Shown: piece by piece, positions 42,551 to 51,531 of the stretch
Position numbering within the stretch: position 1 is the stretch's first letter
Layout of the letters: every line of letters begins with the position of its first letter
Assembly: GCF_027474845.2 (NCBI RefSeq)
Contig: NZ_CP107031.2
Span: forward strand, 813,501 to 877,500
Length of the DNA: 64,000 nucleotides
Reading direction: 5' to 3'
Source: Maribacter aestuarii
GTDB taxonomy: Bacteria > Bacteroidota > Bacteroidia > Flavobacteriales > Flavobacteriaceae
The notes under the pieces: generated by a model
Databases searched by the model: none
What the model saw: only the letters and a program-made list of their open reading frames with translations
Told to the model about the DNA's origin: nothing
Program-made: the position numbers and the translations under genes

Positions 42551-42566
42551 TACAGAGAAAATACTG

Positions 42567-42641
42567 TGGGACATACTGGATTCGAACCAGTGACCTCTGC
42601 CCTGTCAAGGCAGCGCTCTAAACCAACTGAGCTAATATCCC
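42567..42641 (-). tRNA. tRNA-Val (GAC)
   Basis: A 75-nt cloverleaf: acceptor GGGATAT/ATGTCCC plus discriminator A, D stem GCTC/GAGC, anticodon stem CTGCC/GGCAG with loop TTGACAG (anticodon GAC, complement of 42604-42606), T arm ACTGG/CCAGT. CCA is not encoded. It is the left flank of the DUF1549/DUF1501 block. Confidence 0.95.
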
Positions 42642-42825: not shown

Positions 42826-45800
42826 ATGAATTTCAGGCATTTTGGATTCTTCCTAATAAGTCTCTTTTTTTTAGTTGCCAATATAATGTTCCGGACGAAT
42901 TGGAAATGGCCTATAACGACTTACCGGATGTTATTGATTTTAACTTTCATGTTAAGCCAATATTATCGGACCGTTGTTATACTTGCCATGGACCTGATGC
43001 TAATTCAAGAAAAGCAGGATTACGACTCGATATTGAAGAAAATGCTTTTGCTACCCTAGAAAGCAGAAATACCGCCTTCGTGAAAGGGAGTCCGGGCAGT
43101 AGTGAAAGTATCCGTAGGATACTAAGCAGTGACCCAGAGGTCCAAATGCCTCCCCCAGAATCTAATTTATCACTTTCTAAAACGGAAAAGGCAATCCTTA
43201 TTAAATGGATTGAACAAGGTGCAAATTGGAAAAAGCATTGGGCATTTCTTCAATTGGAAAAACCAAATATCCCTAAGGTTGAAAATGACTCATGGCCGCA
43301 TCATAATGAAATCGATCAATTTATACAGGATAAACTTCAACAGACCGATTTAGAACCATCGCAAGAGGCGGACAAAGAAAGGTTGTTACGCAGGGTTACC
43401 ATGGACCTTACGGGATTACCACCTACGATAAATGAAATTGACGCATTTATTTCAGATGATAATGTGGATGCCTATGAAAAGTTAGTGGACCGCCTTTTAA
43501 GTACGGATGCAAATGCCGAACGATTGGCCTTGGATTGGATGGATCTATCACGATACGCGGATTCACATGGGTTACATGCAGATGGAGCCCGATTAATGTG
43601 GCCTTGGCGAGATTGGGTCATTGAGGCTTTTAAAAATAATATGCCGTATGACCAATTCGTCACTTGGCAACTCGCAGGAGATCTTTTGCCAAATTCTTCC
43701 AAAGAGCAGAAATTAGCTACTGCATTCAACAGAAACCACCCTATGACTGCAGAGGGTGGAGCAATAGAAGAAGAGTTTAGGTTAAACTATGTTTTTGACC
43801 GTACAGAAACTGTCGGCACCGCATTTCTAGGCCTAACCGTTGCATGCGCAAAATGTCATGACCACAAATTTGACCCTATTTCACAAGAGGATTATTTTAA
43901 AATGACAGCCTTCTTTAATAATATAAAAGAATTAGGCATGACCGGGGATGATGGCAATTATGGGCCTATGCTGGCGCTTCCGGATAAAGACACCGAAAAA
44001 AAACTGAAAAACTTGGAGGAAATTATTAATAAAAAAGAGGGTAAACTTCTTTTAACTCAAAAAGAACTTTCAAATTTAGATACCTATATTAAAAATCTAC
44101 CTCCAAATTTTAAAGAAAAGCAACTATTAGATTACTATCCATTAGACAATCTTACCAAGAACAGCAAAGGCCATGTTGCGGATAACAATAGAAATGCGAC
44201 TACCAGAGAAGCTCCTGAGCTTGTTCCAGGGGTTAAGGACAGGGCCTTTGAGTTTGATGGAGAATATGATGACCTCAACCTTCATAATATTCCAAATTTT
44301 GAATGGACCGATGCTTTTTCCATAAGTCTTTGGATGAATACCACGAAAAGGGAAGCCGGAAAAACACAGACCCTGATAGGTACTTCTGGGGATAAAAATA
44401 ATTTTTGGAGAGGATGGGACCTTTATTTGGACAGTCTAAATCATCTCAATGCTAGGCTTATTCATTCACTACCTCATAACTACATTCATGTACGATCCAA
44501 GGATTCCATAAAAATCAATGAATGGAAACATGTTGCTTTTACTTACAACGGTTCGTCAAAGGCAAAAGATATCAAGTTATATATTGATGGTGAGTTGGCA
44601 GCAGTGGAAATCGGTTTTGATAATTTATACAAAAGCATTAAGACAATAAGAAGTGGTAACCATTCAGCTTTTGACGCCCCGGTCAGGGTAGCAAAAAGTT
44701 ATAGAGGTTTTACGGGAGAAAATGGAAATTTTTTAGGAAAGATTGATGAAATCAGAATTTATCAGAGGACCTTATCCCCTCAAGAGATAAAAAGGCTAGG
44801 AATTTTAGACGATAGTAATGAGAATTTACCTGTAGACAAATCATTTTGGGTACAACAATCCAATGAAATTAAAGACCTACAAGAAGAACTTAAACATTTA
44901 AGGGGGCAATGGCTAAAGACCATGAATCCAGTTATGGAAGTAATGGTCATGGAAGAAATGCCGCACAAAAGAAAGGCATTCCTATACAATAGAGGTGATT
45001 ATGAACAGCCTTCTTATGAAGTCAAGGCGAATACTCCGTCTATACTTCCGGAATTCTCTCCTGAATTTCCAAAAAATAGATTGGGCTTATCCGAATGGCT
45101 TTTTTCAAAAGAGAATCCTCTGACCGCTAGAGTGACTGTAAATAGGTATTGGCAGTTATTGTTCGGAAAGGGATTGGTGGATACACCTACAGATTTTGGA
45201 GTCCAGGGTTCCCTTCCAACACACCCAGAACTATTGGATTGGCTCGCGAGTTCTTTCAGGGATAGCAACTGGAATGTAAGAGCGTTACTCAAAACAATGG
45301 TAATGTCACACACCTATAAACAGTCTTCTGTTGTACCTGAGGAACTCAAACAGAAGGATCCAGGCAATAATTATCTCGCAAGGAGTAACTCGTACAGGTT
45401 ACCTGCAGAAATGATACGGGACAACGCCTTGGCCGCAAGTGGCCTGTTGGTTCCTATTGTAGGAGGCAAAAGCGTTAAACCATATCAACCAGCCGATTTA
45501 TGGATAGAGAAAACTAGTTTTTCCCACGAATTATTGAGATATAAGGAATCTAAAGGAGATAGTTTGTATCGCAGGAGTCTATATACCTTCATACGTAGAA
45601 CACAACCACATCCCGCGATGATAGCATTTGATTCTCCCTCAAGGGAAGTATGTACCATAAACAGAGAAAATACGAATACACCTTTACAAGCCTTAGTGTT
45701 ATTAAACGACAAACAGTTTGTGGAAGCTTCAAAAATTCTCGCTGAACGAGCACAGAAAGAAGGAGGTGATACCTTAGAAGATCAGATTGCCTTTGCGTTT

Positions 45801-46025
45801 AGATTAGCACTAACCCGCAAACCAAAAAAGTCAGAATTAGGCTTGCTTCTAGAACTTTTTGAACATCAAGAGAGGAGGTTTGGAGATAACCCCAGCGAAG
45901 TTTCGGAACTGTTGTCAGTAGGAGAAAAACTGGTCGATAATTCCTTAGATAAAACAAAAACAGCGGCCATGACCATCGTTGCTAATACCCTGTTAAACCA
46001 TGATGAGGCCTATACCAAAAGATAA
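42826..46025 (+). CDS. DUF1549/LamG/DUF1553 cytochrome-type lipoprotein (PSCyt1-PSCyt2-PSD1), signal peptide in a shifted frame
   Basis: The main frame (from a TTG at 42900; first ATG 42906) encodes about 1040 residues. They comprise a PSCyt1-like haem motif CYTCHG, a DUF1549 domain (RVTMDLTGLPPT ... CAKCHDHKFDPI, itself a second CxxCH), a LamG/concanavalin-like insert (about 402-633) and a DUF1553 domain (NPLTARVTVNRYWQLLFGKG ... CTINRENTNTPLQAL). The lipoprotein signal MNFRHFGFFLISLFF begins at 42826 in another frame. Adding one T to the T8 run at 42865-42872 gives MNFRHFGFFLISLFFFSCQY, with a lipobox ending FSC, and a 1066-residue lipoprotein. It is the first gene of a four-gene operon. 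Redox activity is inferred from the haem motifs; the substrate is unknown. Confidence 0.85.
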
Positions 46026-46036
46026 AACTAACAGCA

Positions 46037-47500
46037 ATGTGCGATAATCACAACAAAAATTATACCCGTAGGGATTTTCTAACCAAAACCACACTGGGTA
46101 TGGGTGCGTTGTCACTCGGTGCAATGATAGATCCAACGAGTATTTTTGGGAATGCTCCTAAGGGAATACCGACGGATTTTGGAACGGGCGGTGTTTTAGG
46201 GCAACCCCATTTTGCGCCAAAAGCCAAGAGAATAATCTATTTGTTCCAGAGTGGCGCCCCGTCTCAATTGGATTTGTTCGATTATAAACCCCTTCTGAAC
46301 AAGATGCAGGGTCAAGATTTACCGGAAAGCGTTCATGGAGGTCAGCGTTTAACAGGAATGACTTCGGGGCAGGCTTCCCTTCCTCTAGCGGGCACGTTGT
46401 CCAAATTCAATCAGTATGGTGATAGCGGAGCCTGGATGACCAATTTAATGCCGTATACCTCCAAAATCGTTGATGAGCTTTGTTTCATAAAATCGATGTA
46501 CACTGAAGCTATCAACCACGATCCGGCTATTACCTTTATTCAAACCGGTTCTCAATTACCGGGAAGACCATCAATGGGTTCTTGGTTGAGCTATGGTTTG
46601 GGAACGGACAACAAAAATCTTCCGGAATTTGTGGTACTAGTTACTAAGGGCAAAACCGGTGGACAACCACTATATTCAAGATTGTGGGGAAATGGTTTCC
46701 TTCCTTCTCAACACCAAGGGGTTCAATTCAGAGCTGGAAAAGATCCCGTTTTATATTTGACTAATCCTCCTGGAGTAGATGCTAAAGGAAGAAGAGAGCA
46801 ATTAGATTATCTTCAAAAATTAGAGCAATTAAATCATAACGATATAGGTGATCCTGAGATATTGGCTAGAATGGCCCAATACGAAATGGCATTTAGAATG
46901 CAAACCTCTGTGCCCGAAATTATGGATACGGCCGATGAGCCTGATTACATTTATGACATGTACGGAGAGGATAGCAAAATACCGGGCACATTTGCCGCCA
47001 ACGCTTTGTTAGCAAGAAGATTAGCGGAACGTGACGTCAAATTCATCCAACTCTATCATCAAGGTTGGGACCAGCACGGGAATCTGCCTAATGCCCTAAA
47101 CAGACAATGTAAGGATACAGATCAGGCAACGGCTGCCCTTATTAAAGATTTAAAACAGCGAGGTATGCTGGAAGATACTTTAGTAATCTGGGGTGGTGAA
47201 TTTGGAAGGACCAATTACTCTCAGGGGCAATTGACCGCAACAAATTTTGGAAGGGATCATCACGGTAAGTGTTTTACAATTTTTATGGCCGGAGCAGGTA
47301 TCAAAGGTGGGGTGACTCTAGGAGCAACAGACGATTTTGGTTTTAATATAACACAGCGTCCTGTCCATGTTCACGATTTTCAGGCTACAGTAATGCATTT
47401 ATTAGGTATAGACCATGAAAGACTAACTTTTAAATTTCAAGGAAGAAGGTACCGTCTTACGGATGTTCATGGAGAGGTGGTTAAAGAAATCTTAGCCTAG
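46037..47500 (+). CDS. DUF1501 family protein with Tat signal
   Basis: A 487-residue exported protein. The twin-arginine signal reads YTRRDFLTKTTLGMGALSLG. The rest has the alkaline-phosphatase-superfamily/sulfatase-like DUF1501 features IIYLFQSGAPSQLDLFDYKP, IKSMYTEAINHDPA, QLYHQGWDQHGNLP, WGGEFGRTNYSQG and GRDHHGKCFTIFMAGAG. Tat export suggests folding with metal in the cytoplasm. DUF1501 genes routinely follow DUF1549/DUF1553 genes in Planctomycetes and some Bacteroidetes. It starts 11 bp after its partner; the activity is undefined. Confidence 0.92.
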   Translation: MCDNHNKNYTRRDFLTKTTLGMGALSLGAMIDPTSIFGNAPKGIPTDFGTGGVLGQPHFAPKAKRIIYLFQSGAPSQLDLFDYKPLLNKMQGQDLPESVHGGQRLTGMTSGQASLPLAGTLSKFNQYGDSGAWMTNLMPYTSKIVDELCFIKSMYTEAINHDPAITFIQTGSQLPGRPSMGSWLSYGLGTDNKNLPEFVVLVTKGKTGGQPLYSRLWGNGFLPSQHQGVQFRAGKDPVLYLTNPPGVDAKGRREQLDYLQKLEQLNHNDIGDPEILARMAQYEMAFRMQTSVPEIMDTADEPDYIYDMYGEDSKIPGTFAANALLARRLAERDVKFIQLYHQGWDQHGNLPNALNRQCKDTDQATAALIKDLKQRGMLEDTLVIWGGEFGRTNYSQGQLTATNFGRDHHGKCFTIFMAGAGIKGGVTLGATDDFGFNITQRPVHVHDFQATVMHLLGIDHERLTFKFQGRRYRLTDVHGEVVKEILA

Positions 47501-47514
47501 ATAAACATCAAATT

Positions 47515-48567
47515 ATGAAAAAGACAAGAAGGCATTTTATTAAAAATACACTGGTAGCTTCCGCAGCCGGATTTATTTTACCCAGTGAAACTTTTGGAAT
47601 TATAAATCCAACTAAAAATATGAGTTCAATAGTAGGCCATGGGAATTTCACCTATAACGTTGATAAGGAATGGGGCGTTCAGGACCCTTCAAAAACACCT
47701 GTTAACGATTGCCATGAAATGGTGATGGACAGCAATGGTCATATCTTAATGACCACCACGGGTACCAACAATGACAATATTTTGGTTTATGATAAGTCCG
47801 GTAAAGTTTTGAAATCTTGGGGGCAAGAATTTCCAGGGGCACACGGGCTGTCCATAATGGGAGAAGGTAAAGATCAATTTCTCTTTATAACTGACCCTGA
47901 TTCTCATAAAGTCTGGAAAACCACTTTGGACGGTAAAATACTTATGACCTTGTCCCGACCCAAAGAAATAGATGGTTATACCGAAGACGAGCAATTTAAA
48001 CCTACCGAAACGGCAATCTTGCCAAATGGGGAATTTTATGTGGCGGACGGATATGGGGAGAACTACATCATACATTATAATGCCAATGGTGAATACATGA
48101 ATCACTTTGGAGGGACTGGCAACAAATCCAATGAATTTAATTGCTGTCATGGTATTACTTTAGATACAAGGGATAAATCTAACCCAACGCTTTTAATCAC
48201 ATCTAGGGCAAGTCAAGAGTTCAAAAGATTCTCTTTGAATGGACAGCATTTGGAAACTGTTCCATTGCCCGGATGCTCCATTTGTAGGCCCGTGATTCAT
48301 GGTGATAATCTTTATTTTGCAGTAATCGTTACTAAAACTTGGGATTCTTGGGATGGCATGCTGGCCGTTCTTGATACCGACAACAAAGTTGTTTCTTTGC
48401 CAGGGGGTGATGCTCCCCAGTATCTCAATGGCGTTTTGCAAGAACCTATATATGATGGAAAAACCTTTAGAAATCCCCATGACGTCCTTATTGATAACGA
48501 TGGTAATCTATATGTACCACAGTGGGCGTCGGGCAAAACATACCCTATCAAACTCAATAGGATCTAA
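47515..48567 (+). CDS. Exported six-bladed beta-propeller (NHL-like) protein
   Basis: A 350-residue protein beginning with a Tat-like leader KKTRRHFIKNTLVASAAGFI. Repeating blade motifs follow: DCHEMVMDSNGHILMTT, GAHGLSIMGEGKDQFLFIT, PTETAILPNGEFYVADGYGE, GITLDTRDKSNPTLLIT and NPHDVLIDNDGNLYVPQW, typical of NHL/peptidylglycine-lyase-like propellers. Cysteines cluster near ECNCCHG-like FNCCHGIT and PGCSICRP. It is the third operon gene (14-bp gap). A binding or hydrolase role is possible but not assignable. Confidence 0.88.
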   Translation: MKKTRRHFIKNTLVASAAGFILPSETFGIINPTKNMSSIVGHGNFTYNVDKEWGVQDPSKTPVNDCHEMVMDSNGHILMTTTGTNNDNILVYDKSGKVLKSWGQEFPGAHGLSIMGEGKDQFLFITDPDSHKVWKTTLDGKILMTLSRPKEIDGYTEDEQFKPTETAILPNGEFYVADGYGENYIIHYNANGEYMNHFGGTGNKSNEFNCCHGITLDTRDKSNPTLLITSRASQEFKRFSLNGQHLETVPLPGCSICRPVIHGDNLYFAVIVTKTWDSWDGMLAVLDTDNKVVSLPGGDAPQYLNGVLQEPIYDGKTFRNPHDVLIDNDGNLYVPQWASGKTYPIKLNRI

Positions 48568-48581
48568 ACCAATTTGGAAAA

Positions 48582-49949
48582 ATGATTCTATTTTTAGCCT
48601 TTGATTTTACCAATTTTATTGGTCGCTTCCATCCTATTTTAGTCCATCTACCCATAGGTTTCCTCTTGCTGGCCATTTTTATGGAATGGTATGAGAGAAT
48701 AGTGAAAAGAAAACAACTAAGTTTTTTAATTTCCTTTGCATGGCTACTAAGCGGTATTGGTGGGGCTCTTGCGGCTTTATGCGGCTGGTGGTTGGGTGAG
48801 ACTGGTCTATACCTTGAGAACGATTTGTTTTGGCATCGTTGGTTGGGGATTTTAATTGTTCTGTTATCCTTTGGAGGGTGGCTACTTAAAAAGAAACCCA
48901 CAGAATATTCCGGTGTTTTTCACTACGTCTTTAACGTTTTGGTTTTGAGCTTAATCCTGTTTGAAGGTCACTTAGGTGGTAATTTAACTCATGGGCAAGA
49001 CTATCTATTGCAGTATGCCCCTAGGTCCATTAAGAATATATTTCAAAAAGAAGACACCCTTCAACGCATTGATTTAATTGGCAAGGATTCTATTTTGGTC
49101 TACCATGACCTGATTGAACCAAGCTTTGCGAAAAAATGCTTTGCCTGTCATAATGCGGAAGTTAAAAGGGGCGGCCTAAACATGGAACATCCGGATTCTC
49201 TCATGGTAGGGGGCGAGAGCGGGCCAGTGCTTGTTTCTGGAAATACACTAGAAAGCGAAATTTTCAAAAGAATTACCTTATCCCAAAAAAATACAAAGTT
49301 TATGCCCCCAGTAGGGGAATCCATGACTTATTCCGAAATACAACTTCTTGATTGGTGGATAAACAATGGGGCTGATTTTGCGATAAGCCTTAAGGATGCA
49401 AAACTTGATGAATCCGTTAAATCTCTTTTATTAAGAACATATGGTATAGATACAACACCCAAACCATGGTACGAAACCGTAAAAATTGAGCCGGCAGATA
49501 GTTCTATAATAAAGGATGTATCCAGTATGGGCTTTGTTATCAAAAGGCTTGGCTTTACGAATAATTTATTGGACGTTAAATTTGAGGGAAAAGATTTAAG
49601 TGATGAAAAACTTCAATCATTATCGGAAATTTCTGAACATGTCACCTGGCTATCTTTTGCTAAAAGCAATATATCCGACAGGGGACTAAAATATGTAGCT
49701 GAATTCAAAAATCTGACAAGACTACAACTAGAACGAACCGATATTTCCGATGAAGGAATCGAGCCGCTATCCGTACTTGAACATCTGGAGACCATCAATC
49801 TATATGAGACTAGTGTTTCTGAAAAATGTCTCGGGTATTTAACCCAGATACCAAGTCTTAAACGCGTTTACTTGTGGAGAACAAATCTGAACATAGAAAA
49901 AACTGGCTTGTTCAATGAAGAACATCCTCATTTAGAAATCATCTTTTAA
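48582..49949 (+). CDS. DUF2231 membrane domain - cytochrome c - leucine-rich repeat fusion protein
   Basis: A 455-residue inner-membrane protein. About four membrane segments with FHPILVHLPIGFLLLAIFMEW (DUF2231) occupy residues 1-135. A planctomycete-type cytochrome domain follows with CFACHNAEVKRGGL (CxxCH near residue 186) and FMPPVGESMTYSEI. Leucine-rich repeats take up about 320-455 (DEKLQSLSEISEHVTWLSF and similar units). It could be the quinone-side electron acceptor for the soluble operon partners; this is inferred from domains. It ends 11 bp from the convergent Gfo/Idh gene. Confidence 0.88.
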   Translation: MILFLAFDFTNFIGRFHPILVHLPIGFLLLAIFMEWYERIVKRKQLSFLISFAWLLSGIGGALAALCGWWLGETGLYLENDLFWHRWLGILIVLLSFGGWLLKKKPTEYSGVFHYVFNVLVLSLILFEGHLGGNLTHGQDYLLQYAPRSIKNIFQKEDTLQRIDLIGKDSILVYHDLIEPSFAKKCFACHNAEVKRGGLNMEHPDSLMVGGESGPVLVSGNTLESEIFKRITLSQKNTKFMPPVGESMTYSEIQLLDWWINNGADFAISLKDAKLDESVKSLLLRTYGIDTTPKPWYETVKIEPADSSIIKDVSSMGFVIKRLGFTNNLLDVKFEGKDLSDEKLQSLSEISEHVTWLSFAKSNISDRGLKYVAEFKNLTRLQLERTDISDEGIEPLSVLEHLETINLYETSVSEKCLGYLTQIPSLKRVYLWRTNLNIEKTGLFNEEHPHLEIIF

Positions 49950-49960
49950 TTATGCCCAAG

Positions 49961-51295
49961 TTATAAAGCGTAATTTCTGTTTTTTCTTTTGCGAAGCTTA
50001 TTCGCCTCAGAATTACCTTTGAACTTTTCCTTTTTAGGATCCCAGTTCAGGGTTGTTCCTAATTCATAAGCTATATTAGCGACATTACAAATAGTTGCTG
50101 ATCTATGACCTGTTTCAACATCACATATCGGACTTGTCCTCGTTTTTATCGCAGATAACCAATTTTCATAATGATTTCCCTGATTCTTGAAGAGTTCCGT
50201 GGAATTTCCTCCATTGGGCATTAAAATATTTATTGGAGTTGTTTCCAGAAAACTTCGGCTAACGTCCATAGTTCCTTCAGAACCAATAAACCTTACCGCC
50301 CATCCCCTTCCAAAATCTTCGTGTACCATTTCAATGCCATTCTCATAATATATTTTCAGGCCTCTAACAAAATTTTTATCATTGGGCGGAATATAGGTAG
50401 TAGGTCCGGTCCGGTCCATACCCAAACACCACTGGACAATATCGAACATATGGGCGCCCCAATCCGAAAGAATGCCACCACCAGTCTCTTTAAAATCTCT
50501 CCAAGCGGGATATTTATCCACAACTTCAGGGGCAATAGTATGGTGATATGTTAGTAACGGTGCTGGGCCACACCAAAGATTCCAATCAATTCCTTTTGGT
50601 ATTTCTTCTTTAGGAAGATTATAAGCTATTGCAGGATCACCAACATTCACGAATACCCTGGAAATCTCACCTAGCTTACCAGATGCAACGATTTCTTTCG
50701 CCTTTGCAAACTTTTCCCAAGAACGTTGCATACTCCCCACCTGTAGGACTTTGTCATTCCTGATCGTAGCATCGACCATTGCCCTTCCCTCCTTAATAGT
50801 ATTGGTCATTGGTTTTTCACAATAGACGTCCTTACCATTATTCATGGCGTCTATTGATTGTAAAGCGTGCCAGTGATCTGGTGTAGCAATTACAACCGCA
50901 TCAATATTTTTTTGCTCTAGTAGTTCTTCATAATTTAAAAAAGTTGTTATGCCCTCAAATTTAGTTTTGTTGCGTTTTTCAGCATATAAGTTTTGTACAA
51001 TACTTTTGAAAGCTTCCATCTTAGGAATCCATACATCACTGCCGGCCACTATTTGAGCCTGGGAATTGGTCATAAATTTATTTGCCAAAATACCTCCTTG
51101 TTTTCCAAGACCTATAAAGCCAAGACCTATCTTATCACTCGGAGGCACAAAGCCTTTACCCAAAACATGTCTAGGAACTATAGAGAAAAGTCCTAAAGCC
51201 ATTGTTGTTTTGGTTATGAAATCTCTTCTTGAGAAATTTGCTGGACCTGATTTTTTCCTGGTACCATCTTTAGTCTCCGCACTGGTATCTTTCAT
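49961..51295 (-). CDS. Gfo/Idh/MocA family oxidoreductase with Tat signal
   Basis: A 444-residue exported NAD(P)-dependent sugar-type oxidoreductase. A twin-arginine signal SRRDFITKTTMALGLFSIV follows a charged 20-residue leader; the core has LGFIGLGKQGG (Rossmann), AVVIATPDHWHALQSIDAMN, DVYCEKPMTN (catalytic Lys) and GGGILSDWGAHMFDIVQWCL. The C-terminal tail is basic. Its RRDF leader resembles that of the DUF1501 protein. It is convergent with the cytochrome operon and probably acts in the same periplasmic pathway. Confidence 0.92.
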   Translation of the reverse strand: MKDTSAETKDGTRKKSGPANFSRRDFITKTTMALGLFSIVPRHVLGKGFVPPSDKIGLGFIGLGKQGGILANKFMTNSQAQIVAGSDVWIPKMEAFKSIVQNLYAEKRNKTKFEGITTFLNYEELLEQKNIDAVVIATPDHWHALQSIDAMNNGKDVYCEKPMTNTIKEGRAMVDATIRNDKVLQVGSMQRSWEKFAKAKEIVASGKLGEISRVFVNVGDPAIAYNLPKEEIPKGIDWNLWCGPAPLLTYHHTIAPEVVDKYPAWRDFKETGGGILSDWGAHMFDIVQWCLGMDRTGPTTYIPPNDKNFVRGLKIYYENGIEMVHEDFGRGWAVRFIGSEGTMDVSRSFLETTPINILMPNGGNSTELFKNQGNHYENWLSAIKTRTSPICDVETGHRSATICNVANIAYELGTTLNWDPKKEKFKGNSEANKLRKRKNRNYAL

Positions 51296-51448: not shown

Positions 51449-51456
51449 CATTTATG

Positions 51457-51531
51457 TGGGCCCTACTGGATTCGAACCAGTGACCCCCTGCTTGTAAGGC
51501 AGGTGCTCTGAACCAACTGAGCTAAGAGCCC
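51457..51531 (-). tRNA. tRNA-Val (TAC)
   Basis: A 75-nt cloverleaf: acceptor GGGCTCT/AGGGCCC plus A, D stem GCTC/GAGC, anticodon stem CCTGC/GCAGG with loop CTTACAA (anticodon TAC, complement of 51494-51496), T arm ACTGG/CCAGT. CCA is not encoded. It shares a 22-bp identical T-arm segment with the tRNA-Val at 42567-42641. Confidence 0.95.

Follow-up and report, generated by a model that had tools for sequence, protein, structure and literature searches.

Positions 42,826 to 51,295 of a 64,000-nucleotide stretch of the Maribacter aestuarii genome (contig NZ_CP107031.2, positions 813,501 to 877,500; the whole stretch is hereafter called the window) carry a gene module that is a real, conserved and uncharacterised unit. 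Its proteins are a DUF1549/DUF1553 protein with two CxxCH motifs (gene 1), a DUF1501 protein (gene 2), a propeller (gene 3), a DUF2231-cytochrome protein with a leucine-rich repeat (LRR) region (gene 4), and a Gfo/Idh oxidoreductase (gene 5). We tentatively propose that the module could well be an exported sugar-processing redox system that feeds electrons to respiration, of which the window holds one modular copy. According to the coordinates of the open reading frames (ORFs), genes 1 to 4 form a row with spacings of 11, 14, and 14 bp and gene 5 converges on them, as a first-pass annotation made from the sequence had described; the gap between genes 4 and 5 is 11 bp. Pfam confirmed the domain content given there, with the LRR match of gene 4 lying under the Pfam cut-off, and none of the five proteins reached the cut-off of any NCBIfam family. 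The Tat-type signals listed below refer to the twin-arginine translocation (Tat) pathway.

42826..42872, plus strand: signal part of gene 1, ATG and signal-peptide segment (sequence, three-frame translation, intact relative P0122, own predicted protein P0121)
42900..46025, plus strand: gene 1, PSCyt1, DUF1549, Laminin_G_3, and DUF1553 domains with two CxxCH motifs (ORF, Pfam, AlphaFold model)
46037..47500, plus strand: gene 2, DUF1501 protein with Tat-type RRxF signal, sulfatase-related (ORF, Pfam, profile comparison)
47515..48567, plus strand: gene 3, NHL-type six-bladed propeller with Tat-type RRxF signal and an invariant His/Glu/Arg set (ORF, Pfam, PDB matches)
48582..49949, plus strand: gene 4, DUF2231 membrane domain, PSCyt1 c-haem domain, and C-terminal LRR region (ORF, Pfam, model)
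49961..51295, minus strand: gene 5, Gfo/Idh oxidoreductase with Tat-type signal, related to sugar 3-dehydrogenases, optional module partner (ORF, Pfam, PDB matches)

Linkage and conservation of the module

The linkage survey covered 60 genomes, of which 36, counting the own one, belong to the genus, and partners were counted on the same strand within 8 kb. DUF1549 had 60 matches in 29 genomes, with anything from 0 to 6 copies per genome; good gene 4 matches numbered 57, in 30 genomes. DUF1501 accompanied 59 of the 60 DUF1549 matches and gene 4 accompanied 55. Each strong DUF1501 match was likewise scored for DUF1549 (59/60) and gene 4 (56/60), and each gene 4 match for DUF1549 (55/57) and DUF1501 (56/57). 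The exceptions were two contig-end pieces (G031:C72 and G009:C140), G008:C114 and three G036 modules, all four of which lack gene 4, and G036:C14, which has gene 4 alone. Single ORFs matching both the gene 1 and the gene 4 families account for five of the 55 associations (G003, G006, G021, G032, and G035); in the one fusion checked with Pfam (L062 of G032), DUF2231, PSCyt1, DUF1549, and DUF1553 stand in one chain. These fused ORFs argue that genes 1 and 4 work together.

The third slot of Maribacter and related loci may be occupied by a propeller or by an AP_endonuc_2 protein (a sugar-isomerase-like TIM barrel; L049 is the single case tested), or it may be empty, which leaves genes 1, 2, and 4 as the conserved core. 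One locus group carries an extra CHB_HEX_C_1 protein together with a gene 4 that has Fn3_assoc, CHB_HEX, and F5_F8 matches (tested in L053). When gene 5 was searched in the 60 genomes at E 1e-60, 18 matches were obtained, 12 of them (own included) at an identity of at least 59% and six at 34–37%. All 12 close relatives lie 1.2–11.2 kb from a DUF1549 match, as does one of the six distant relatives at 13 kb (G036:C5). At the gldJ/murF locus, the core is found with no adjoining gene 5 in six other genomes (L034, L035, L036, L037, L038, and L041; L034 offers only 1.5 kb of sequence on the gene 5 side). Since the close relatives are all near modules but gene 5 is absent from these six same-site loci, gene 5 is an optional but dedicated partner of the module. 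A search for all five families co-occurring in the order of the window had been suggested at first pass, with a lack of conserved co-occurrence as the refuting outcome. That outcome was not obtained: the DUF1549/DUF1553, DUF1501, and DUF2231-cytochrome core is tightly linked, with close Gfo/Idh relatives nearby. What is conserved is not the five families in fixed order, given that the content of the propeller slot differs between loci and that six related genomes lack Gfo/Idh at this locus. In L041 (G010, a genome that is 81% complete), gene 1 is broken into two ORFs, as are gene 4 and murF, a pattern that suggests sequencing errors.

Across 296 genomes of the phylum, the gene 4 profile matched 45 at E 1e-10. 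Thirty-seven of these (own included) matched at 1e-60 or better, and the other eight were short cytochrome-domain matches. We inspected 20 outside loci, one per genome, picked by hand from high in this list; G000 and G036 were omitted as already examined, G176, G207, G263, G271, G314, and G326 are genomes of similar rank left out of the sample, and two of the 20 loci come from the same family as the genome of the window. Relatives of genes 1 and 2 occurred within the same 20 kb as gene 4 in 15 of the 20 loci, not always side by side (L117), and the order of the core was rearranged among the loci of other genera. L119:9186-19999 is a tandem array that combines gene 4 with two successive DUF1501 and DUF1549 pairs; a third DUF1501 is partly present where the locus ends. 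A Phycisphaerales (Planctomycetota) contig (L073:9001-11017) carries a gene 4 relative (23–25% identity) and then a propeller relative (36% over 128 residues, up to the contig end), while DUF1501 and DUF1549 were not matched in the 11 kb of this contig that were examined. The gene 4–propeller pair may thus not be confined to Bacteroidota, which counts slightly in favour of the sugar-processing proposal.

Domains and conserved residues of the module proteins

The Pfam domains of genes 1 and 4 lie at the following positions.

42975-43160, plus strand: gene 1, PSCyt1 domain (Pfam)
43308-43928, plus strand: gene 1, DUF1549/PSCyt2 domain (Pfam)
44256-44792, plus strand: gene 1, LamG domain (Pfam)
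45075-45857, plus strand: gene 1, DUF1553/PSD1 domain (Pfam)
48627-48989, plus strand: gene 4, DUF2231 domain (Pfam)
49137-49310, plus strand: gene 4, PSCyt1 c-haem domain (Pfam)

PSCyt1, DUF1549, and DUF1553 of gene 1 all score over the Pfam cut-offs within a single protein. The two CxxCH motifs already seen at first pass are kept in 55 of 56 relatives, the odd one being the truncated ORF of L041. The AlphaFold model of gene 1 (mean predicted local distance difference test [pLDDT] score, 78.5) is mostly helical, and two long helices flank its beta-rich LamG part. The protein had also been described as lipid-anchored. This agrees with the nearest relatives, but the anchor cannot be read from this assembly, where the signal is out of frame. 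Three-frame translation places the ATG at 42826 and the hydrophobic signal in a different frame from the mature protein; eight consecutive T (42865-42872) mark the frame change, and the protein predicted for this genome (P0121) begins only at 42906. The closest intact relative (P0122), which is 96% identical, has an in-frame lipoprotein-type signal. A crude lipobox pattern matches 31 of the 56 relatives, and the misses include variant cysteine signals, wrongly chosen starts, other hydrophobic N-termini, and fused DUF2231. Judged from these N-termini, a lipid anchor is common, though perhaps not universal, among gene 1 relatives. The break in gene 1 could stem either from an assembly error of one base or from a genuine lesion.

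In gene 4, the single CxxCH named in the earlier annotation is conserved in all 54 relatives. H17, H22, H85, H137, C186, C189, H190, and M241 are identical in 54/54, and H130 in 53/54 (98%). The model (mean pLDDT, 83.6) has helices at residues 17-42, 48-72, 79-104, and 111-137, with the conserved histidines near the starts of helices 17-42 and 79-104 and near the end of helix 111-137. These histidine-bearing ends are predicted to share one face of an up-and-down bundle, from which the cytochrome domain follows. A fold search with gene 4 returned LRR matches. The conserved histidines and methionine lend support to the suggestion that the DUF2231 protein may be a link to the respiratory chain.

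S1 sulfatases belong to the alkaline phosphatase superfamily, and their hallmark is the formylglycine motif C/S-x-P-x-R. In hhalign, the DUF1501 profile matched sulfatases with a probability of 92.8% over 111 columns, in the C-terminal part only, while the SusC control gave 0.2%. Pfam matches of DUF1501 to Sulfatase (PF00884, E 0.0032) and Phosphodiest (E 0.014) were both below cut-off. In a global profile alignment with an overall probability of only 7.8%, the sulfatase CxPSR segment aligns with NHDPA of DUF1501, and His161, which is invariant in 56/56 relatives, occupies the position of the sulfatase catalytic cysteine. The formylglycine motif was not found in DUF1501. D345, H347, E388, and H408 are likewise invariant in 56/56, D82 and H460 are conserved in 98%, and 54 of the 56 relatives carry the RRxF signal. 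By profile comparison, DUF1501 is a sulfatase relative, and we infer a metal-hydrolase fold with a different nucleophile site. Because DUF1501 is a sulfatase relative, the purely oxidative pathway proposed at first pass is doubtful.

All 30 gene 3 relatives carry the RRxF signal, and the invariant residues include H42, H67, E68, H110, E165, D178, H212, R231, R258, and H322. The gene 3 profile matches TRIM-NHL propellers and peptidyl-alpha-hydroxyglycine lyase (PAL) in the PDB (7qrw, E 7.4e-18; 3fvz, E 1.1e-14). The PDB matches of gene 5 include the dehydrogenases 8tdf and 8tdh and the glucuronide-3-dehydrogenase 8tdi. Against the BT_2158 model NF058561, gene 5 scored 138.9 bits, far under the curated cut-off of 750.

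Surroundings, proposed function, and alternative explanations

Up to two proteins of 150–1250 residues per side were sampled from the flanks of 29 of the 40 loci of Maribacter and relatives, giving 111 proteins. Among the best 25 of 129 families were 7 Gfo/Idh, 7 AraC, 6 sulfatase, 4 ThuA, 3 rhamnosidase, 3 LacI, 3 Na/sulfate-symporter-type, and 2 fucosidase proteins; some of these loci belong to related species, and the Gfo/Idh proteins counted here overlap with the gene 5 result. Of the SusC/SusD pair expected of a polysaccharide utilisation locus, L068 contains SusD and TonB-receptor proteins, and L040 a TonB receptor. For the window itself, the best 25 of 81 families were considered. No sugar-linked family of the flanks was found there with two or more members among the 44 other window proteins; single members are possible. 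P450, ferredoxin-reductase-type, and alcohol-dehydrogenase-type genes lie near one sister module (L043:1678-5530). We take this set, as a lead, to resemble the clusters for 6-O-methyl-galactose demethylation of red-algal galactans. L044, L046, and L057 have ORFs similar to this trio in length.

The module in the window is bracketed by two tRNA genes, which are missing from the first-pass annotation.

42566..42641, minus strand: tRNA-Val (gac), on the murF side of the set
51456..51531, minus strand: tRNA-Val (tac), on the folC side of the set

This tRNA-Val pair also brackets the module in L035 and L037. murF still adjoins tRNA-Val(gac) in 7 of 12 relatives that have no module at that site; because this junction persists, the interval between the two tRNA-Val genes looks like a variable site. 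The own genome has a second module (DUF1549 at 123167 on the same 3.86 Mb contig as the window) and encodes cytochrome c assembly (PF01578) and TatC (PF00902). Most of the named close relatives of the module proteins belong to Maribacter species, including M. algicola, M. flavus, M. aurantiacus, and M. litopenaei. Elsewhere in the window, a SAM-II riboswitch was found at 637-694 on the minus strand (70.2 bits).

In the proposed sugar-processing redox system, gene 1, a lipoprotein in its nearest relatives with two c-haem motifs and a lectin-like LamG part, would bind a glycan or oligosaccharide, and it would either oxidise the glycan itself or accept the electrons from its oxidation. Electrons would pass from gene 1 to the c-haem of gene 4, then to the histidine-rich DUF2231 membrane bundle, where a b-type haem or quinone site is proposed, and on to the respiratory chain. 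Gene 2 would hydrolyse a bond in the same substrate. The propeller may be an exchangeable accessory, either an enzyme or a binding protein, whose place the sugar-isomerase-like barrel takes in some sister modules, and gene 5, where present, would oxidise a ring alcohol of the sugar in the manner of periplasmic glycoside 3-dehydrogenases. A bolder form of this proposal is doubtful, namely that glycans are oxidised by the DUF1549/DUF1553 core as a new di-haem enzyme, with DUF2231-PSCyt1 as its dedicated quinone-reducing membrane b/c-type cytochrome and DUF1501 as a sulfatase-related hydrolase of the same substrate with histidine replacing formylglycine, which together would make a widespread, undescribed respiratory sugar oxidase.

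Several observations weigh against the sugar-processing proposal. The DUF2231-cytochrome is missing from G008:C114 and from three modules of G036. Among the 20 outside loci, gene 4 stands alone in L108 (where the contig end cuts the locus), L113, L114, and L115, and with only the propeller in L110. Modules from related species are not independent counts. Housekeeping genes also occur in the flanks of sister modules (3 each of tRNA synthetase, ribosomal S16, and RimM). No structural relative was found for the DUF1549/DUF1553 core, the fold comparison having covered the LamG region only, and the signal peptide of gene 1 is out of frame in this copy. The b-haem or quinone site at the histidine cluster of DUF2231 is putative, being drawn from the conserved residues. 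The role of DUF1501 need not be redox, because a relative of it adjoins DUF1800, a family in which no cytochrome match was found in the one protein scanned.

We regard one alternative as unlikely: the genes would help to mature or export surface polysaccharide or envelope made by the cell itself and would have no part in breaking down food sugars, and the haem domains would be redox or oxygen sensors or structural parts. DUF1501-DUF1800 pairs occur elsewhere, including bacterial chitin synthase operons (according to the available part of PMC5122149). A DUF1800 gene is present in 35 of the 36 genomes of the genus, the own one included, where a DUF1501-type match lies about 1 kb from the single DUF1800 gene (G000:C1:2143044-2145748, minus strand, outside the window). 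The families neighbouring the module in the window are, in addition, mostly housekeeping among the best 25 of 81. However, many sister modules stand beside sulfatases, glycosidases, and AraC or LacI regulators, and the copy number of DUF1549 varies between genomes as it does for catabolic loci. It is distinctly improbable that the module disposes of electrons or reactive oxygen by means of a peroxidase-like di-haem protein and a membrane cytochrome, with the sugar genes as mere neighbours. The two c-haem motifs kept in nearly all gene 1 relatives would suit such a role, and a DUF1553/DUF1549 gene of Rhodopirellula is discussed as a likely target of a stress-induced sigma factor in the accessible portion of PMC2754498. 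In contrast, the dedicated Gfo/Idh (12/12), the LamG domain, and the carbohydrate-related neighbours suit sugars better, and no peroxidase family was found in the five proteins by Pfam at E 0.001.

Two further explanations concern the copy and the linkage themselves. With the export signal of gene 1 out of frame at the T run and the predicted protein starting downstream of it, this copy might be decaying, so that the set would not work here and the intact copies would be those of relatives. We consider this improbable, since a single break in a homopolymer is a typical sequencing error, gene 1 is open beyond the break, and the other four ORFs run uninterrupted to the length expected of them. 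The linkage might also reflect shared ancestry or hitch-hiking with no joint function, as most surveyed genomes belong to one genus and several modules are orthologous; the finding of the core in 15 of the 20 outside loci, in rearranged order, and the fusion of its genes make this very hard to credit.

Comparison with known systems

PSCyt2 (DUF1549) genes of Verrucomicrobia usually adjoin a family of genes of unknown function, some with CBM domains and with sulfatases near (available excerpt of PMC5615132), and Rhodopirellula has 41 copies each of DUF1553 and DUF1549 (available excerpt of PMC2754498). The module of the window resembles the PSCyt1-PSCyt2-PSD1 genes that are paired with this family in Planctomycetes and Verrucomicrobia: the domains are alike, carbohydrate-binding modules, Laminin_G_3 among them, occur in some, and sulfatases are often near (PMC5615132; Studholme et al. 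as cited in PMC5615132 and PMC2754498, each as far as available). Gene 1 has the same domains, and a DUF1501 gene begins 11 bp downstream of it. In contrast to those pairs, the window set belongs to Flavobacteriaceae, has DUF2231-PSCyt1-LRR as third core partner, and has an optional, dedicated Gfo/Idh. DUF2231 is not named in the available portion of the PSCyt2 gene-pair description (PMC5615132), and the only further literature match for this domain was one database paper. The DUF1800-DUF1501 pairs of chitin synthase clusters likewise combine a DUF1501 protein of Tat type with a large neighbour whose function is unknown (PMC5122149, in its available part). Unlike gene 1, the one DUF1800 protein scanned has no cytochrome match, and no similarity between the DUF1800 and gene 1 profiles was demonstrable (hhalign probability, 4–6% over about 30 columns).

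Sugar 3-dehydrogenases of the LacABC type have a GMC flavoprotein subunit. The five window proteins differ from that system in that none has a GMC or DUF1080 match at E 0.001. The membrane-bound lactose 3-dehydrogenase LacABC and its DUF1080 hydrolase share with our proposal a periplasmic oxidation of sugar followed by hydrolysis (available text of PMC9007349). BT2158, annotated as a periplasmic glycoside 3-dehydrogenase, is required for Bacteroides growth on trehalose, leucrose, and palatinose. Gene 5 resembles it as an exported-type Gfo/Idh with dehydrogenase matches in the PDB including 8tdi, but falls below the family cut-off and travels with cytochrome genes (BT2158 as described in the available portion of PMC11300592). 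DUF1501 shares with S1 sulfatases a match to their C-terminal part and differs in the invariant His161 at the position of the CxPSR cysteine. Gene 3 is like both PAL and the TRIM-NHL propellers in that its profile matches both, the PAL likeness being one of profiles.

DUF1549, DUF1553, and DUF1501 are still Pfam domains of unknown function, and the first two are abundant in some planctomycetes. The set of partners, a membrane cytochrome that is linked and sometimes fused and a dedicated Gfo/Idh, makes the redox hypothesis testable with few proteins, and the histidine that stands for cysteine in this relative of the sulfatases poses another pointed question. In the open-licence literature, we found no description of this gene set, nor of the DUF2231 partner or gene 5 within such a set. 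The known part of the module is the uncharacterised PSCyt/DUF1501 gene pairs, and its new part is the DUF2231-cytochrome core partner together with the dedicated Gfo/Idh.

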